Source: Succinivibrio dextrinosolvens (GTDB lineage Bacteria > Pseudomonadota > Gammaproteobacteria > Enterobacterales > Succinivibrionaceae). From it: 64,000 bases of DNA. Under the pieces are notes generated by a model, which had not been told where the DNA came from, searched no databases, and saw only the letters and a program-made list of their open reading frames with translations. Positions 118-38,853 of this stretch are shown piece after piece (position 1 is the stretch's first letter; each line of letters begins with the position of its first letter). The position numbers were made by a program, and so were the translations under genes. The stretch is from the NCBI RefSeq assembly GCF_011065405.1, contig NZ_CP047056.1, forward strand, positions 3,308,747 through 3,372,746. The letters are read 5' to 3'.

Positions 118-1311
118 TCAGCTTAACAGCCAATGAGTCAGATCGATAACCTTAATTCCTTCAATATCAAAGTCTTTGTGTCCTGTATTAGCGATTAGGA
201 TTTTTGGATACGCATCTCTGATAGCTTTTAAGGGAGCTAGTTCTCTGTGCAGAGTTTCCTCTGAAGAAATGTTGTCCGAAACCTGAATGCAGATTTTTTC
301 GTTTTGTTTAATTGCAACAAAATTTATTTCTTTCTGATAGAGTTTTCCTACATACAGGTCATATTTCCTTCGTAGAAGCTCTATTGCAACAATATTCTCA
401 TATGCTCTTCCATAATCCATATTTCTTGAGCCGAGCAAAGCATATCTGAAGCCTAAATCACTTAGGTAGTACTTATCGGAAGTTTCAAGATATTTCTTTC
501 CTTTGATGTCATATCTTTTTATTTTGTAAAACATGAAACCACTGCACAGGTACTTAATATAATTTCCTATTGTTATATGATTTGTGTCAGTTCCATTATT
601 CTTTAAAATTGACGTGATTTTATTTGTGGAGGTTAGGTTGGAAATATTATCCATAAGATAATCTGTTAACGAGTCAAGAAGAGATAGTTCTTTAATTGAG
701 TATTTATCAACCAGGTCTCTTTTTATCACCGTATTGTAAACATCCTTAATATATGCAAGCTGATCTTCTTTTTCTCTATATACATAAGAACCAACAAACC
801 CTCCATCTGATACATAGGAATCAAGAACATTTGGCGTTTTTTCTGTGTAATCATAATATCTGCAGTATTCTGCGAAGCTGAAAGGATAGACAGGAATTTC
901 TATGTATCTTCCAGTAAATAAGGTAGATAAATCTGAACTCAGCAGGAACGCATTTGAGCCTGTAATATAGATGTCGAACCTGTGAGAGTTGTATAATCTG
1001 TTGATTGTAAGTTCAAATTTATTGCATAACTGAATTTCGTCAATAATCAGTACATTGGATTTATCTGCATTGTATAATTTTTCGCAGTAATCATTGAGCA
1101 TTTTGTAGGACTTAAGATCATCGTATTTTAAATCAGCAAAATCAATGTAGATAATGTTGGCATTGCTCTCATTTGCAATAATCCAGTCCATATAAGCTTT
1201 GATCAATTCCGACTTTCCTGCTCTGCGCAGACCTGTGATTATTTTTATATCAGGTGTATTTCTTAGTCTTTTCAGTCGTTCTAAGTAGTTTTGGCGTTCA
1301 ATGTATTTCAT
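118..1311 (-). CDS. AAA_14/DUF4143 family ATPase
   Basis: Predicted ATP-binding protein of the AAA_14 plus DUF4143 family. A P-loop GLRRAGKS lies near residues 27-34 and a Walker B LIIDEIQ near 89-95. The C-terminal third carries the DUF4143 region ending in a degenerate PD-(D/E)XK-like core (EINFVAI, then CIQVS). About 397 residues is near family length. The ATG at 1309-1311 is preferred over an in-frame TTG at 1312-1314. The role of this family is not established; many copies occur in gut anaerobes. Directly upstream of the start codon sits a TnpB element, and beyond it at 2837-2935 lies a minus-strand promoter with a repeat array that fits as the original control region. The gene is therefore probably cut off from its promoter. 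Confidence 0.85.
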   Translation of the reverse strand: MKYIERQNYLERLKRLRNTPDIKIITGLRRAGKSELIKAYMDWIIANESNANIIYIDFADLKYDDLKSYKMLNDYCEKLYNADKSNVLIIDEIQLCNKFELTINRLYNSHRFDIYITGSNAFLLSSDLSTLFTGRYIEIPVYPFSFAEYCRYYDYTEKTPNVLDSYVSDGGFVGSYVYREKEDQLAYIKDVYNTVIKRDLVDKYSIKELSLLDSLTDYLMDNISNLTSTNKITSILKNNGTDTNHITIGNYIKYLCSGFMFYKIKRYDIKGKKYLETSDKYYLSDLGFRYALLGSRNMDYGRAYENIVAIELLRRKYDLYVGKLYQKEINFVAIKQNEKICIQVSDNISSEETLHRELAPLKAIRDAYPKILIANTGHKDFDIEGIKVIDLTHWLLS

Positions 1312-1321
1312 CAAAAAAATA

Positions 1322-1364
1322 GCAGAGCGGAAACCTCAGACTTAAGTCTGAGGCGGAGCTCTGC
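1322..1364. repeat. Left-end double hairpin of the TnpB element
   Basis: The outer stem GCAGAGC / GCTCTGC encloses a perfect inner palindrome, CCTCAGACTTAAGTCTGAGG. IS200/IS605 ends form subterminal hairpins that TnpA recognises. The right part, GGCGGAGCTCTG followed by CCAA, recurs nearly exactly at 33202-33216, so related ends occur elsewhere in the window. Confidence 0.65.
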
Positions 1365-1430
1365 CAACTCAGGCTATATATTTTAAAGAATTTCTTTACA
1401 ATATCTGTTAGAATATAGGGATTATATGGC

Positions 1431-2660
1431 TTGGAGAAAACTGTTTTGATATTTACAAAAACATTAAAAATAAGAATTAATGTACCTTCAGAACAGGAAA
1501 CACTGTTACGTCAGATGACGGAGCAGTATCGACAGGCATGTAATTTTATTTCAGAATACGTTTTTACCCATTCCTTTGACTTGAACTTCTTCAGTCTCAA
1601 TAAAGTACTGTACAGGGATATAAGAGGAAAGTTTAGACTTAAATCTCAGCTTGCACAGTCATCCATCAAAACAGTTATTGCAAGATATAAAACTGTAAAA
1701 GAACAGCTTTTAGAGCATCCATACTGCTATAAAGACGAGAAAGGCGAATGGCAGAGCATACCAAAGACACTGGAATGGCTTTTTAAGCCGGTGTATTTCA
1801 GCAGACCTCAGACAGATTTGGTTCGCAACAGAGATTACAGTTTTGTTGAAAATGGAAGTCTGTTATCAATCAATACTCTCGGTGAAAGAATCAAATGTAC
1901 TTATGAGAGAGAACATTTCAAAGAATATTTTGATGGCAGCTGGAGATTTGGAACAGCGAAGCTTGTGAAACTCAAAGGCCTATGGTATCTGCATATTCCT
2001 GTAACCAGAGAAAAAGAAGATTTCAAAAAAGAGAATGTAAAACATATAGTGGGAATAGACAGAGGCTTACGCTTTCTGTCTGTAAGCTATGATGAAGAAG
2101 GAAAGACCGAATTTATAAGCGGAAAGAAGATTGCAACAAAGCGAAACAAATTCCTTGAGCTGAGACGAGAGCTTCAGGCTAAAGGAACAAAATCAGCAAG
2201 ACGAAGACTAAAAGCTATATCCGGACGAGAAAACCGCTGGATGTCAGATGTAAACCATCAGATATCAAAGACACTCGTGAGGAAGTATGGCAAAGATACA
2301 CTGTTTATTCTTGAGGATTTAACCGGTGTAAGTTTTGATGAGCGCAATCTTTCAAGAACAGCAAAAAAGAGATATGACCTAAGAAGCTGGAGCTTCTACC
2401 AGCTGGAGCAGTTTCTAAAATACAAAGCTCAAGAGACGGGCTCTGAAGTACTTAGGGTAAGTGCAAAATACACATCTCAGAGATGTCCCGTATGTGGAAA
2501 GATCCACAAACAGAGCAGAGATCATAACAGACATCTGTATAGCTGCCCATGCGGCTATAAATCCAATGATGACAGAGTTGGAGCCATGAATATTCAGAAT
2601 CTTGGAAAGAGATGGCTGTCAGGAGAAAAGAATCCTCGATACAAAAAGGATAATAACTGA
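1431..2660 (+). CDS. tnpB: TnpB RNA-guided nuclease (IS200/IS605 OrfB family)
   Basis: TnpB-family protein, 409 residues. The RuvC acidic residues all appear present: Asp in VGIDRGLRFL, Glu in FILEDLTGV, and Asp in SNDDRVGAMNI. A four-Cys zinc ribbon (CPVCGK then CPCGY) sits between the last two. TnpB proteins cleave DNA guided by an omega-RNA transcribed from the 3' end of the element, which helps the element persist at its site. No tnpA partner lies nearby, so movement would need one in trans. The start is a TTG with AGGG about 10 nt upstream; no ATG in frame is close. It differs clearly from the second TnpB at 35023-36312, so the two are separate lineages. Confidence 0.85.
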   Translation: MEKTVLIFTKTLKIRINVPSEQETLLRQMTEQYRQACNFISEYVFTHSFDLNFFSLNKVLYRDIRGKFRLKSQLAQSSIKTVIARYKTVKEQLLEHPYCYKDEKGEWQSIPKTLEWLFKPVYFSRPQTDLVRNRDYSFVENGSLLSINTLGERIKCTYEREHFKEYFDGSWRFGTAKLVKLKGLWYLHIPVTREKEDFKKENVKHIVGIDRGLRFLSVSYDEEGKTEFISGKKIATKRNKFLELRRELQAKGTKSARRRLKAISGRENRWMSDVNHQISKTLVRKYGKDTLFILEDLTGVSFDERNLSRTAKKRYDLRSWSFYQLEQFLKYKAQETGSEVLRVSAKYTSQRCPVCGKIHKQSRDHNRHLYSCPCGYKSNDDRVGAMNIQNLGKRWLSGEKNPRYKKDNN

Positions 2661-2805
2661 TTAAGAGTAAACTCTTTTTCAAAGCGGGCATTGTCAATTG
2701 TCCGATGATGCTGGCAGTGTAGGGAGATTACCAATTGGTATCGCTTGTACCTATATTATGCTGACTAGCAAGCCCTCGGATTTATCCGAGGGTATTTGAC
2801 AGCGG
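2560..2805 (+). ncRNA. Possible omega-RNA of the first TnpB
   Basis: TnpB guide RNAs normally overlap the 3' end of tnpB and run to the right end of the element. Here that would be the last part of tnpB plus the non-coding stretch to the perfect hairpin CCCTCGGAT / ATCCGAGGG at 2773-2792. The guide would be the sequence just past the element end. Placement is by analogy only; ends are approximate. Confidence 0.25.
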
Positions 2806-2836
2806 TACGAATTTTGTGGTTACTTTTTCAAATTTA

Positions 2837-2864
2837 ATTATAGTACCACTTTCGAAACTTTCAA
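2837..2864 (-). promoter_or_regulatory. Minus-strand promoter, probably of the displaced ATPase gene
   Basis: On the minus strand, TTGAAA (2859-2864) and a perfect TATAAT (2837-2842) are 16 bp apart. The spacer contains the motif TTTCGAAAG, one unit of the repeat array at 2848-2935. Transcription would run leftward. No leftward gene begins before the ATPase start at 1311, and the TnpB element fills the gap. If the element is removed, the promoter lies about 30-40 nt from that ATG, a normal leader length. Confidence 0.65.
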
Positions 2865-2935
2865 AATTTTTGACTTTCGAAAGTAAAGTGTCAATCTACT
2901 TTCGAAACTTTAAAAAAAAATTGAGTTTTGAAAGT
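2848..2935. repeat. 25-bp-period TTTCGAAA repeat array
   Basis: ACTTTCGAAA occurs at 2848, 2873 and 2898, exactly 25 bp apart. A degenerate fourth unit near 2923 reads GTTTTGAAAGT. The unit at 2873-2884 is a perfect 12-bp palindrome, ACTTTCGAAAGT. The spacing and palindromic core suggest a protein-binding operator array. It overlaps the -35 and spacer of the minus-strand promoter at 2837-2864. Confidence 0.7.
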
Positions 2936-3026
2936 GAATTTTTATGAAAATAAAAACTAATGATTAAATGCTTGGAAAGGAAGTAACAAATAGGGGAATT
3001 ATAGAAAGCTTGGGAGAGAAAACAGA

Positions 3027-3050
3027 ATCTCCTGCGCTGAGGCAGGAGAT
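3027..3050 (-). terminator. Terminator-like hairpin after potI
   Basis: A perfect 9-bp stem, ATCTCCTGC / GCAGGAGAT, with a 6-nt loop lies 12 nt past the potI stop. The minus-strand tail is only loosely T-rich, so it may be a terminator or an mRNA 3' stabilising hairpin. Confidence 0.6.
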
Positions 3051-3062
3051 AGTATCAATATA

Positions 3063-3938
3063 TTAGGCTGCGATTGTATTCTCTTTTCTGAGAGCTGCCT
3101 TAACCATAGCAGCATTGCGTTCCTTGCGTTTCTGTTTGCGCACGGTTAGAACCCATGAAACAAAGGCAAAGATTGAAACCACAAAAACAATCACTGAAGC
3201 CAGAGCGTTGATCTCAGGTGACAGACCACGTCTTACACTTGAGAAGATAAGCATAGGCAGTGTTGTGGAGTTTGGTCCTGCTACGAAACTTGCAATAACC
3301 AGATCATCCATTGACATGGTGAAGCTCAGCAGGAAGGCGGCAACTTCTGCTGGCATAATTGCAGGCAGAATAATTACAAAGAAAACCTTCATCGGACCAG
3401 CTCCAAGATCTTTTGCCGCTTCTTCAATGGATACATCCAGCTCAACGAATCTTGAGCGGATAACCACAGTAGCATATGCAGAACAGAAGGTTACGTGGGC
3501 AATCCAGATGGTAATCATTCCTCTGTCTGAGAAGATAGGAATAATATCGCTTAAAGTTACGAAAAGTAACAGCAGTGCCAGACCTGTGATAACTTCAGGC
3601 AGAATCATAGGTGCAGTCATAAACAGCAGGAAGGCGCTTTCGCCTGTGAACTTCTTAATTCTGACCATAACAAATGCTGCTAGCGTTCCTATAATCACTG
3701 AAGCAATAGCTGACATAACAGCGATGGTCATAGAAATACCAACTGCAGTTATGATGGCATCATTATTCATCAGAGCACGATACCATTTCAGTGAGAACTT
3801 GGTCCAAACAGTAACCATCTTTGACTCGTTGAAGGAGTAAACCACCAGAGTCATGATTGGCAGATACAGGAAAATCAGAGTCAGTGTCAGAATTACAAAT
3901 CTGAACAGGGTACTCTTGGTATTCTTATTTAAGATCAT
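3063..3938 (-). CDS. potI: Putrescine ABC transporter permease PotI
   Basis: Inner-membrane permease of a polyamine ABC transporter, 291 residues with about six membrane spans. It carries the EAA coupling loop (EEAAKDLGAGPMKVFFVIILP). Sequence features such as DDLVIASFVAGP and SSVRRGLSPEINALAS fit PotI of the putrescine importer better than PotC. It follows potH with a 4-nt overlap, which indicates translational coupling, and pairs with PotH to form the channel. It is the last gene of the operon. No gene for the periplasmic binding protein PotF follows; the next sequence is the repeat array and the TnpB element. Confidence 0.88.
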   Translation of the reverse strand: MILNKNTKSTLFRFVILTLTLIFLYLPIMTLVVYSFNESKMVTVWTKFSLKWYRALMNNDAIITAVGISMTIAVMSAIASVIIGTLAAFVMVRIKKFTGESAFLLFMTAPMILPEVITGLALLLLFVTLSDIIPIFSDRGMITIWIAHVTFCSAYATVVIRSRFVELDVSIEEAAKDLGAGPMKVFFVIILPAIMPAEVAAFLLSFTMSMDDLVIASFVAGPNSTTLPMLIFSSVRRGLSPEINALASVIVFVVSIFAFVSWVLTVRKQKRKERNAAMVKAALRKENTIAA

Positions 3939-35022: not shown

Positions 35023-36312
35023 ATGAATATCAACTGGAAACAGGCATACAGATATAGGTTAAGACCTAATGGCGCACAGCAGAGAAGATTACTTCAGCTC
35101 TGCGGCTCTGCCAGATATGCATGGAACCAGGTCTTGACAGGAAGAAATGAGGAATATAAGGAATATCTTGAAGACATCGAATCAGCCAAATGCTGGGGAG
35201 AAGATGTTTCTTTAGTACCAAAGCCAAGACCTATAAATAGATTTTCATTTACATATGATCTTAATAAACTGATGGCAGAGGAAGAAAACAGCTTTCTCAA
35301 GACTCAGGGGCACTCTCAGGTGCTGCAGCAAAAGATGCAGGACTTGTATAGTGCTTTTAGCCGGTTCTTCACAGGTAAAGGCGGATATCCTCAATTCAAG
35401 ACCAAAAACGGATACAACTCTATAAGATTTCCTCAGGGCATAAATCTGGATGAGAAGAATCAGAGGATCTTTCTTCCAAAGACCGGTTTTGTAAGGTACA
35501 GAAAGTCCAGAGATATAGAGGGAGACATAAAGAACGTAACCGTCTCATTCTTTTCTGGAGAATGGTATGTATCTATACAGACTCAGAAAGAAATTGAAGT
35601 ACCTGAGATAAATCTAAAAACCATGTTAGAGACTGAGGCGGATAATGCTTTGGGTATAGATATGGGAGCAGTACGCTTCTGCACCTTCTCTGACGGACGT
35701 TATGAAGAGTCACTAAAGAGTAATGAGCTTACCCGTCTTGATGAAAAGATAGCTATTGTTCAGAGACAGCTCAAAAACAAAAAGAAAGGTTCTAACAGAA
35801 GATTAAGACTTATAAAGAGAATTTCCAGACTTCATCAGAAGAAAGCCAATATACGTAATGACAGTCATCAGAAGCTCAGCACACTGATTTGCAATAGCCA
35901 CGCTATAGTTGTTGCTGAGGAGCTGAAGATCAAGAATATGACGAAAAGTGCAAAAGGAAGCCTGTTAAATCCTGGTAAGAATGTAAAAGCAAAGTCAGGA
36001 CTTAACCGTTCAATTCTGTCTGAAGGCTGGGGACAATTCTTTAAGATGCTTGAATACAAGCAGAAAAAGAGAGGTCATATCTTTTTACAGCTTAACCCAA
36101 AGAATACCAGCAGAACCTGTCCTAAATGCGGTCATGTCTCAAAAGACAATCGCAGAACTCAGGCTCATTTCTGCTGTACGAACTGTGGATATACAGCTAA
36201 TGCAGATGAAAATGCAGCGGGAAATATCCTAAGGGCCGGACTGGCCCGGCTAGCACAGGAAGTGAACTCCAAAAGGAGTCAGCACTGTGAACCCTCTGAA
36301 GCTGAACAGTAA
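35023..36312 (+). CDS. tnpB: TnpB RNA-guided nuclease of the IS605-type element
   Basis: 429 residues with the standard TnpB layout. The N-terminal helix-turn-helix region is YRYRLRPNGAQQRRL. The RuvC residues are Asp in LGIDMGAVRFC, Glu in VVAEELKIKNM and Asp in NADENAAGNI. A four-Cys zinc ribbon (CPKCGH, CCTNCGY) lies before the last Asp. All appear intact. It diverges from the split tnpA with about 50 nt between start codons. Although tnpA is dead, TnpB could still cut empty target sites and preserve the element at this locus. The C-terminal tail (about 25 residues, rich in Ser and Glu) overlaps the omega-RNA region. Confidence 0.93.
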   Translation: MNINWKQAYRYRLRPNGAQQRRLLQLCGSARYAWNQVLTGRNEEYKEYLEDIESAKCWGEDVSLVPKPRPINRFSFTYDLNKLMAEEENSFLKTQGHSQVLQQKMQDLYSAFSRFFTGKGGYPQFKTKNGYNSIRFPQGINLDEKNQRIFLPKTGFVRYRKSRDIEGDIKNVTVSFFSGEWYVSIQTQKEIEVPEINLKTMLETEADNALGIDMGAVRFCTFSDGRYEESLKSNELTRLDEKIAIVQRQLKNKKKGSNRRLRLIKRISRLHQKKANIRNDSHQKLSTLICNSHAIVVAEELKIKNMTKSAKGSLLNPGKNVKAKSGLNRSILSEGWGQFFKMLEYKQKKRGHIFLQLNPKNTSRTCPKCGHVSKDNRRTQAHFCCTNCGYTANADENAAGNILRAGLARLAQEVNSKRSQHCEPSEAEQ

Positions 36313-36355
36313 TGTCAGCAGTAGGAATCCTCTTGCTTCAAGAGGAGGATGTCAA
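36200..36355 (+). ncRNA. Predicted omega-RNA and right end of the IS605-type element
   Basis: The region overlaps the tnpB 3' end and closes with the right-end hairpin CCTCTTG / CAAGAGG (36329-36345) followed by AGGATGTCAA, the classic form of an IS605 right end. In this family the guide is the flank just outside, here from 36356 (AGCCAGAGC). The 5' end of the RNA is a guess. Confidence 0.45.
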
Positions 36356-36926
36356 AGCCAGAGCTTTTGACTTCAATTGGACAAATTTTCTTGTTGAAGG
36401 TTGTTAAAAAATCAATTTCGTAATTTCTTTTTGCTGCTTCATTTCTGAATGTATGATAGAAAAGACCGTGTCCATTTGTTGCAAGTGTCTGAGCGATTAT
36501 GTTCTCATATAGATATCCAAGGTTAGTCTGCAGTTTGTCATTTAGCAATTTTGCATATATATCATTTTCGGTAAAATCTTTGTCTTTAAATGACAATGTA
36601 ACAAACAGTCCTGTATCTGTGGTGAAGAGTTTGAATCTTGAAAGATCTTTGTTTTGAGATAATCCAACATTAGGATCATTTGCATGGTAGGAAAACAGTA
36701 CTGTTCCAGAATCTTTTAGTTCTGCAATGTCCTCAAGAATGTCTCCTGCTCGATTCCCTAACTACAGTAGATTTTCCTACTCGTCTTGGACCTTCTATCA
36801 AAAGAGCTGTACGTCCGTTTGATTCTTTTTTCCACTTAAGTATTTTGTCGTATATCTTACGCTTAAACATCAGGTTTAACCTTTTTAATATTGGTTTTTA
36901 CATTCTAATTTTTTAATCAGAATTTC

Positions 36927-37040
36927 AAAATCGTCAAATTTTTTTTAAGCGTTTTACCGCAAAATCGTCAAATGTTTTTAAGCGTTTTACCGCAAAATCG
37001 TCAAATGTTTTTAGGAGTTTTACCGCAAAATCGTCAAATG
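36927..37040. repeat. 33-bp-period repeat array upstream of the disrupted DUF4143 gene
   Basis: AAAATCGTCAAAT occurs at 36927, 36961, 36994 and 37027 (spacing 34, 33, 33). It is followed in three units by a T-run, an AGCGTTTTACCGC-like segment and the next copy. The first unit is about 55 bp from the start codon of the disrupted ATPase gene at 36872. On the minus strand each unit carries TTGACGATTTT, so the arrays may overlap promoter elements. The rest of 36873-37181 is AT-rich with no gene. Confidence 0.9.
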
Positions 37041-37181
37041 TTCTTTATAAATAAGCTTAACTATTTGTTTTTTTTTAGTAATCTAAGTTATTGAATAACA
37101 AGTTGTGTCTAGCGGATATTTTGGTTTTAAGCCTACGATTTTTTTAATAAAAAAGTTTTTTTGTTCTCAATTGTATCTTTT

Positions 37182-38564: not shown

Positions 38565-38676
38565 TACATTTTTTAATACCTTAAAATATACATTTATTAC
38601 ATTTTTTAAGACCATGAAATATACATTTACTACATTTTTTAAGAGCTAAAAAATAGAAATTTATTACATTTTTTAA
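38565..38676. repeat. 33-bp-period repeat array upstream of the intact DUF4143 gene
   Basis: TACATTTTTTAA occurs at 38565, 38598, 38631 and 38665 (spacing 33, 33, 34), with AAATATACATT-like sequence in the second half of each unit. A minus-strand TATAAT lies at 38561-38566, overlapping the first unit, so the array covers the -35 side of the probable ATPase promoter. The sequence differs from the array at 36927-37040 but the period and position are the same. Confidence 0.9.
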
Positions 38677-38853
38677 GACTTTGAAATATACTTTTGTACT
38701 AGTCAAGAAAAGTGGAATAGGAAAAAATGTATATGAGGAGTTGAAATTTAACAAAAAAAGATAATGAGATGATCATATTTCTCGGATTATGTGGAAATTT
38801 TAAAATTCGGTACTATCCTTACAAGTGGTCGTTTTGTTCTATAAGGAAAGAAT

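Follow-up and report, generated by a model that had tools for sequence, protein, structure and literature searches.

A TnpB-only transposable element has almost certainly cut off an ATPase gene from its promoter and from an array of repeated boxes that overlaps this promoter. The gene lies at the left end of a 64,000-nucleotide stretch of DNA (positions 3308747–3372746 of a 3.47 Mb genome in one contig, G000), which we call the window. Taken alone, this insertion is tidy yet ordinary. Of greater value is the lead given by the stranded array, which pointed to what appears to be a family-wide, promoter-bound operator system in a very common family of defence candidates from many phyla. The features under discussion are as follows (window coordinates, strand, description).

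118–1311, minus: ATPase gene with AAA_14 and DUF4143 domains (Pfam), PADLOC PDC-S01, model PDLC04787 (E 1.5e-142)
1307–1311, plus: TTCAT target-adjacent motif, found at 11 of the 12 left ends inspected (exception L038)
1312–2800, plus: TnpB-only IS200/IS605-type element, 1489 bp, delimited by the common ends of 11 full copies
1313–1366, minus: left-end hairpin (1320–1366, -30 kcal/mol), then T7 directly before the ATPase ATG
1431–2660, plus: tnpB, 409 aa, TTG start (NCBIfam NF040570 guided_TnpB, E 8e-60; Pfam Cas12f1-like_TNB)
2690–2800, plus: right end of the element with hairpin 2773–2792 (-37.8 kcal/mol, z -3.4)
2801–2836, minus: native ATPase leader of 36 nt, beyond the element, joined directly to the ATG in L045
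2837–2864, minus: native ATPase promoter TTGAAA-16-TATAAT (score 11/12; -10 region conserved in L045–L047)
2848–2857, minus: putative operator box 1, TTTCGAAAGT, inside the -35/-10 spacer
2873–2882, minus: putative operator box 2, TTTCGAAAGT, with a perfect ACTTTCGAAAGT palindrome at 2873–2884
2898–2907, minus: putative operator box 3, TTTCGAAAGT
2926–2935, plus: putative operator box 4, degenerate (TTTTGAAAGT)
3027–3050, minus: terminator of the upstream potC-like gene (terminator scan)
36926–37047, minus: 33-bp array of a second, broken DUF4143 gene, unit unrelated to the window array
38565–38695, minus: 33-bp array of a third DUF4143 gene, unit unrelated to the window array

An ATPase gene and its displaced promoter

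The ATPase (397 aa) matches the PDC-S01 model over its full length. Its start codon (ATG, 1311–1309 on the minus strand) abuts the left end of the TnpB element, and the CAT of the adjacent TTCAT motif is the reverse complement of this codon (ATGAA on the other strand). The genome contains 11 full-length copies of the element, the window copy and ten others that are 96–99% identical. At their left ends TTCAT is directly followed by CAAAAAAATAGCAGAG, with L038 as the one exception to the motif; at their right ends all copies stop after TATTTGAC, and the sequences outside the copies differ. Since the copies are alike up to both ends and unlike beyond them, the element comprises positions 1312–2800. 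The preliminary description of this DNA had treated 1312–2935 as one interval. The left end of that interval stands, but 2935 marks where the array ends, not the element.

In its makeup the element is ordinary. With the TnpB-only elements of the IS200/IS605 family, which we take to be those of the IS1341 type, it shares a TNB-domain TnpB with the RuvC/TNB signature, subterminal hairpins at both ends, and insertion at a fixed short left-end motif without target-site duplication (TTCAT, followed by an exact join in L045). The left-end hairpin (z -5.0, matched by 0 of 200 shuffles) looks like a terminator on the ATPase strand; together with its T7 it is absent from the list of the terminator scan. 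The right end with hairpin 2773–2792 presumably supplies the 3' portion of the guide RNA. No Y1 transposase gene tnpA was found within 1312–2800, where tnpB is the sole long ORF. By sequence, the element is a tnpB-only (IS1341-type) member, if it was moved in trans. What sets it apart from its class is solely the insertion at a start codon. We considered TTCAT as a general start-codon trap and rejected this idea, because the window copy alone among the 11 full copies sits at the start of a long ORF; at the L039 copy a 106-aa ORF begins 5 nt away. One further copy in this genome is divided into two parts separated by about 2 kb (L041/L042) and was probably split by another insertion.

The empty site was found in a sister genome, where it had been proposed to look for it. 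A protein search across 19 genomes of the genus gave orthologues of the ATPase in G016 (97% identity), G002 (87%), G001 (78%) and G010 (84%, cut by a contig end). In G016 (locus L045) the array, the TTGAAA-16-TATAAT promoter, a 36-nt leader and the ATG are continuous, and the sequences that flank the element in the window, from 2801 on one side and up to 1311 on the other, are joined base for base. The element is also absent from the loci with 87% (L046) and 78% identity (L047). These observations bear out the claim that a TnpB element parts the gene from its promoter and array. In all three relatives the boxes precede the same ATPase gene behind a potC-like gene, which makes this neighbour common to four genomes including that of the window; an array in front of some other gene, the case that would have spoken against the claim, was not encountered.

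The promoter itself had also been described correctly. The leftward TTGAAA-16-TATAAT at 2864–2837 is the best of nine promoter-like sites in 1000–3100, a region for which shuffled sequences average 6.1 sites. With the element removed, 36 nt separate TATAAT from the ATG, the same as in G016 and within the predicted 30–40 nt. No minus-strand promoter-like site is listed between 1312 and 1893, in line with the earlier statement that the gene has no adjacent promoter. On the far side, the potC terminator (3050–3027) should block read-through from upstream.

The array consists of four boxes of the TTTCGAAAGT type that are 25–26 bp apart, with boxes 1–3 at 25 bp. The spaced pair TTTCGAAAGT-N14..16-TTTCGAAAGT occurs at this site only in the whole 3.47 Mb genome (two overlapping matches), and the reversed control pattern gives 0 matches. 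By period alone the window array does not rise above control promoters (direct score 10.4; 95th percentile of controls 11.3). We regard it as a real feature because it is unique in the genome and conserved, not because of its period.

How may the insertion affect the ATPase gene? The element entered right after the TTCAT formed by the start codon, leaving the coding sequence whole and shifting the promoter and the four-box array 1489 bp away. Any transcription reading through toward the ATPase would meet the hairpin and T7 of the element just before the ATG. Given this structure, the gene is probably silent in the window strain. A neutral insertion, in which an outward promoter of the element keeps the ATPase expressed, is rather unlikely. 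Such neutrality would fit the intact ORF, its 97% protein identity to the G016 orthologue and the changes that followed the split of the two lineages (6 synonymous and 6 non-synonymous in the window copy; 4 and 4 in G016), which reveal no clear decay. It is at odds with the lack of listed promoter-like sites on the ATPase strand between 1312 and 1893, with the hairpin and T7, and with a change in the nuclease-like domain, where residue 330 is N in the window copy and D in all remaining members of a 23-sequence alignment. The lineage counts are too small to reveal relaxed selection after the insertion.

Box arrays at the promoters of PDC-S01 genes

The preliminary description had placed the array just upstream of the promoter, as at the two other DUF4143 loci of the window. 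This is true for the upstream boxes, but one box lies inside the -35/-10 spacer; likewise, the resemblance to the other two loci extends to placement but not to the repeat, which consists of 33-bp units of unrelated sequence there. Most other DUF4143 genes of this genome have repeats of their own just upstream, again with unrelated units (33 bp × 8.8, 32 × 3.4, 32 × 2.9, 33 × 3.4, 33 × 3.6, 33 × 3.7 and 32 × 3.3). Thus, the box sequences differ between paralogues of one genome. Several of the 15 DUF4143 matches in this genome are broken by inserts. One gene (L014, 1697–4355) is split by an insertion of about 1.3 kb with HTH and DDE_3 transposase parts, another (L018) by about 2.2 kb of DNA without a match in Rfam. 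At about 35400–36870 of the window, a second TnpB-like ORF (by eye) ends beside the broken PDC-S01 gene (fragments 36360–36869), whose 33-bp array at 36926–37047 is still present. Another genome of the genus (G008, 3.3 Mb) contains 43 DUF4143 matches.

To quantify the repeats we scored self-repeats at lags of 18–45 within 250 bp upstream of each gene; counts of exact 10-mer repeats had missed AT-rich arrays and were replaced by this lag score. The own-genome set of 15 loci contained 14 of the 15 DUF4143 matches (the fragment at 1200606 was left out) and one locus with AAA_14 only (L025). For the family survey 60 loci were chosen among the matches listed, from which L109 was dropped for its short upstream region, L115 and L126 for lack of a usable start, and L120 because it was masked; L113 and L114 were retained with over-long starts. 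Among the resulting 71 loci (56 from the family, 15 from the own genome) the best lag was 32 or 33 bp at 40 promoters, as compared to 11 of 141 control promoters from the own genome (p 2.5e-14). At 8 of the 71 the best lag was 23 bp. A separate DUF4143 clade (L105, L112, L127, L128 and L132) has direct repeats of 23 bp upstream and not of 32/33 bp. The 99th percentile of the controls was passed by 23 of 57 surveyed loci (L120 included in this count) and by 8 of the 15 own loci, the 95th percentile by 36 and 12, respectively. Arrays are weak or absent at part of the family genes.

A broader scan with three proteins of one clade covered 84,980 species genomes, and the best 80 of 536 confirmed loci were analysed. 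These 80 come from Bacillota, Bacteroidota, Spirochaetota and others, and 67 of them have a best lag of 32/33 bp; among promoters of neighbouring genes from the same contigs, this holds for 4 of 141. Further loci from Pseudomonadota gave this lag in all six cases that could be parsed (15 taken, 9 not parsed). Within the same best 80, an array with lag 32/33 was found downstream of the gene in just 3 of 77 loci, and at -600 to -350 in 6 of 69. The box consensus of the best 80 loci, as judged by eye, is approximately TTCGTCNNGAAAAANTGTAA. A regular expression for the box core matches 63 of the 80 but also finds controls (17 of 141 and 15 of 141); therefore, we count the lag test alone as evidence.

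Across phyla from Bacteroidota to Spirochaetota and Bacillota, promoters of different types carry the same box core with a spacing of 33 bp. TAnnTTTG is the consensus of the -7 element in Bacteroidota; in 22 of 34 loci from this phylum it follows the box core directly (controls: 1 of 56). Loci from Bacillota contain a -35/-10 pair in 24 of 34 cases, and the box often lies in the spacer or across the -35 element. Since the arrays are placed on promoters in phyla with different promoter types, we infer that the operator moves together with the gene.

Some promoters deviate from this pattern. Upstream of L196 and L199 two box types share one promoter, CCTCATAAAATTGG or CCCAATAAAATTGG units followed by the GTCCAGAAAAGTGTAA type; these mixed arrays were perhaps caught in change. 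The AAA_14 gene at L025 is preceded, between -230 and -40, by two unrelated tandem arrays, one of 32 bp and, nearer the start, one with three copies of a ACTTTGCGC-like unit. In the clade of L011 (a match to PADLOC model PDLC04790), L074, L083 and L085, the promoter has just one inverted repeat, TTCGGCTAAAAT...ATTTTAGCCGA, in place of an array. Within the clade of the window ATPase, inverted repeats exceeded the 99th percentile of controls at 0 of 25 loci and the 95th at 5. We gave up inverted-repeat statistics as a test, because upstream terminators raise the controls and the match at L047 is the potC-side terminator.

Candidate readers of the arrays

What binds these boxes? We are highly confident that the window array is the own operator of the ATPase gene, and consider it fairly probable that the ATPase itself is the protein that binds there. 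The AF2 model of the window ATPase (pLDDT 90.4, pTM 0.89) comprises an AAA+ core, a winged helix-turn-helix (wHTH; helices 209–221, 229–238 and 245–257 plus wing strands) and a nuclease-like domain. A phmmer search found no solved structure. By fold, the closest matches among solved structures are two archaeal ATPases, SSO1545 (Z 17.2, 265 residues, rmsd 3.6) and PABY2304 (Z 17.0 over 265 residues, rmsd 3.5); the same two lead the list for a model of a protein from the 33-bp clade. For the window ATPase, NB-ARC/CED-4 and Orc1/Cdc6 come next (Orc1 2qby: Z 14.4, 189 residues, rmsd 4.2). The gene product thus has a predicted DNA-binding domain, and the putative operators overlap the promoter at the window locus and in its relatives, as is expected of autoregulation.

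The boxes of the orthologues change in concert. G000 and G016 have boxes of the TTTCGAAAG type, whereas G002 and G001 have CTTTCAAAAG/CTTTTGAAAG, a change of the central CG to CA/TG. Between G000 and G002, 11 of 37 residues in the HTH segment (225–261) differ as compared to 39 of 359 elsewhere (p 0.003); between G016 and G002 the counts are 10 of 37 and 38 of 359 (p 0.007). There is no such excess between G002 and G001 (4 of 37 and 68 of 359, p 0.27), both of which have the changed box type. An excess was not seen for G000 versus G001 (p 0.30) or G016 versus G001 (p 0.41) either. Across 64 loci, protein identity predicts the box flank weakly (rho 0.17 for all pairs, reached by 1 of 999 within-phylum permutations; rho 0.08 across phyla, reached by 25 of 999), and covariation between protein columns and boxes is not significant (12 of 100 permutations).

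From these observations we propose the following circuit. Most PDC-S01 genes have repeated boxes on their own promoter; the spacing depends on the clade (32/33 bp, 23 bp or inverted pairs of about 35 bp), and each paralogue has a box sequence of its own. Each ATPase most likely binds its own array through the wHTH and represses its own promoter, and this repression would end when the ATPase is drawn off by ATP state, by DNA or by an invader; at the window locus this circuit would have been broken by the TnpB element. Self-binding is the best reading of these data, not proof. Insertion, operator array and self-repression by the ATPase together make up an explanation that we consider likely as a whole.

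The alternative that retains some weight, although we consider it unlikely, is that a separate host regulator, and not the ATPase, uses the arrays as its operators. There is precedent for this idea in RptR, a small separate protein that binds three direct repeats in the promoter of a defence island, according to the available part of that report (PMC12255303), and the weak correlation between proteins and boxes would also be expected. A host regulator of this kind is difficult to reconcile with different boxes on paralogues of one genome, or with a box core and a 33-bp spacing that recur across phyla with varied promoter types. Furthermore, the ATPase gene is the only constant partner of the arrays.

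A more far-reaching version of self-binding is doubtful at present. PDC-S01 ATPases could be sequence-reading AAA+/STAND switches with a private DNA address, which assemble on the 32/33-bp (or 23/25-bp) array of their own promoter. This assembly would be lost, and the gene turned on, once the protein is titrated by the DNA of an invader or by a rival copy that has the same boxes. If so, the array would be the sensor of a very common and unexplained immune system, and rapid box turnover would prevent cross-talk between paralogues.

Two further readings are very improbable. AAA+ ATPases and repeated sites co-occur in Tn7- and Mu-like elements, and MuB filaments are among the Foldseek matches; the arrays might then be ends or recombination sites of an ATPase-carrying mobile element, like the site arrays of TnsB and MuA in Tn7 and Mu. 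This reading conflicts with the near absence of arrays downstream of the gene, with boxes that overlap the promoter itself, and with the potC-like neighbour that the window ATPase gene keeps in four genomes. Least probable of all are iteron-like replication or partition sites, for which the similarity to Orc1/Cdc6 bound to origin DNA speaks, but against which stand up to 43 DUF4143 matches per genome and the placement of the boxes on promoters.

Relation to known systems

All eleven family proteins scanned (the window ATPase and ten others) match PADLOC PDC-S01 models. In the available part of one report, PDC-S01 is an unvalidated candidate that ranks fourth in frequency among prokaryotic defence systems, and most such PDCs are as yet unvalidated for anti-phage activity (PMC12988326). 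Another, as far as its text is available, reports that, in rumen genomes, no single defence locus is more frequent than PDC-S01, with 10,358 cases (PMC13356809). A conserved promoter-bound DNA site would be the first concrete candidate ligand for this family. The TnpB insertion provides a natural experiment, in which a gene was cut from its putative operator and an intact sister strain is at hand for comparison. Our search of the open-access literature found no report of promoter arrays at PDC-S01/DUF4143 genes.

PDC-S01 is described, in the part of that account available, as an ATPase with a PD-(D/E)XK domain (PMC12988326), and the window ATPase likewise combines an ATPase with a PD-(D/E)XK-like domain. 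It differs from this description in the D...E-x-K residues, which are incomplete throughout its clade: Q replaces E (Q343 is invariant), K is absent and Q-V-S/T/A-like residues occupy the position of E-x-K. The E-x-K motif is present in the 33-bp clade. The available parts of the published PDC-S01 accounts do not mention a promoter-bound box array. With archaeal Orc1/Cdc6 and STAND (NB-ARC) ATPases the predicted model shares an AAA+/STAND core followed by a winged helix. Unlike these proteins the window ATPase adds a DUF4143 nuclease-like domain, and a role in replication or signalling is only a candidate. By analogy, RptR is the nearest counterpart of the proposed regulation, as far as the available part of its description goes (PMC12255303): in both cases a defence promoter is under several direct repeats. 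RptR is a separate small repressor that reads a 6-bp palindrome, whereas the putative reader here is the ATPase itself, with boxes that are specific to each paralogue.
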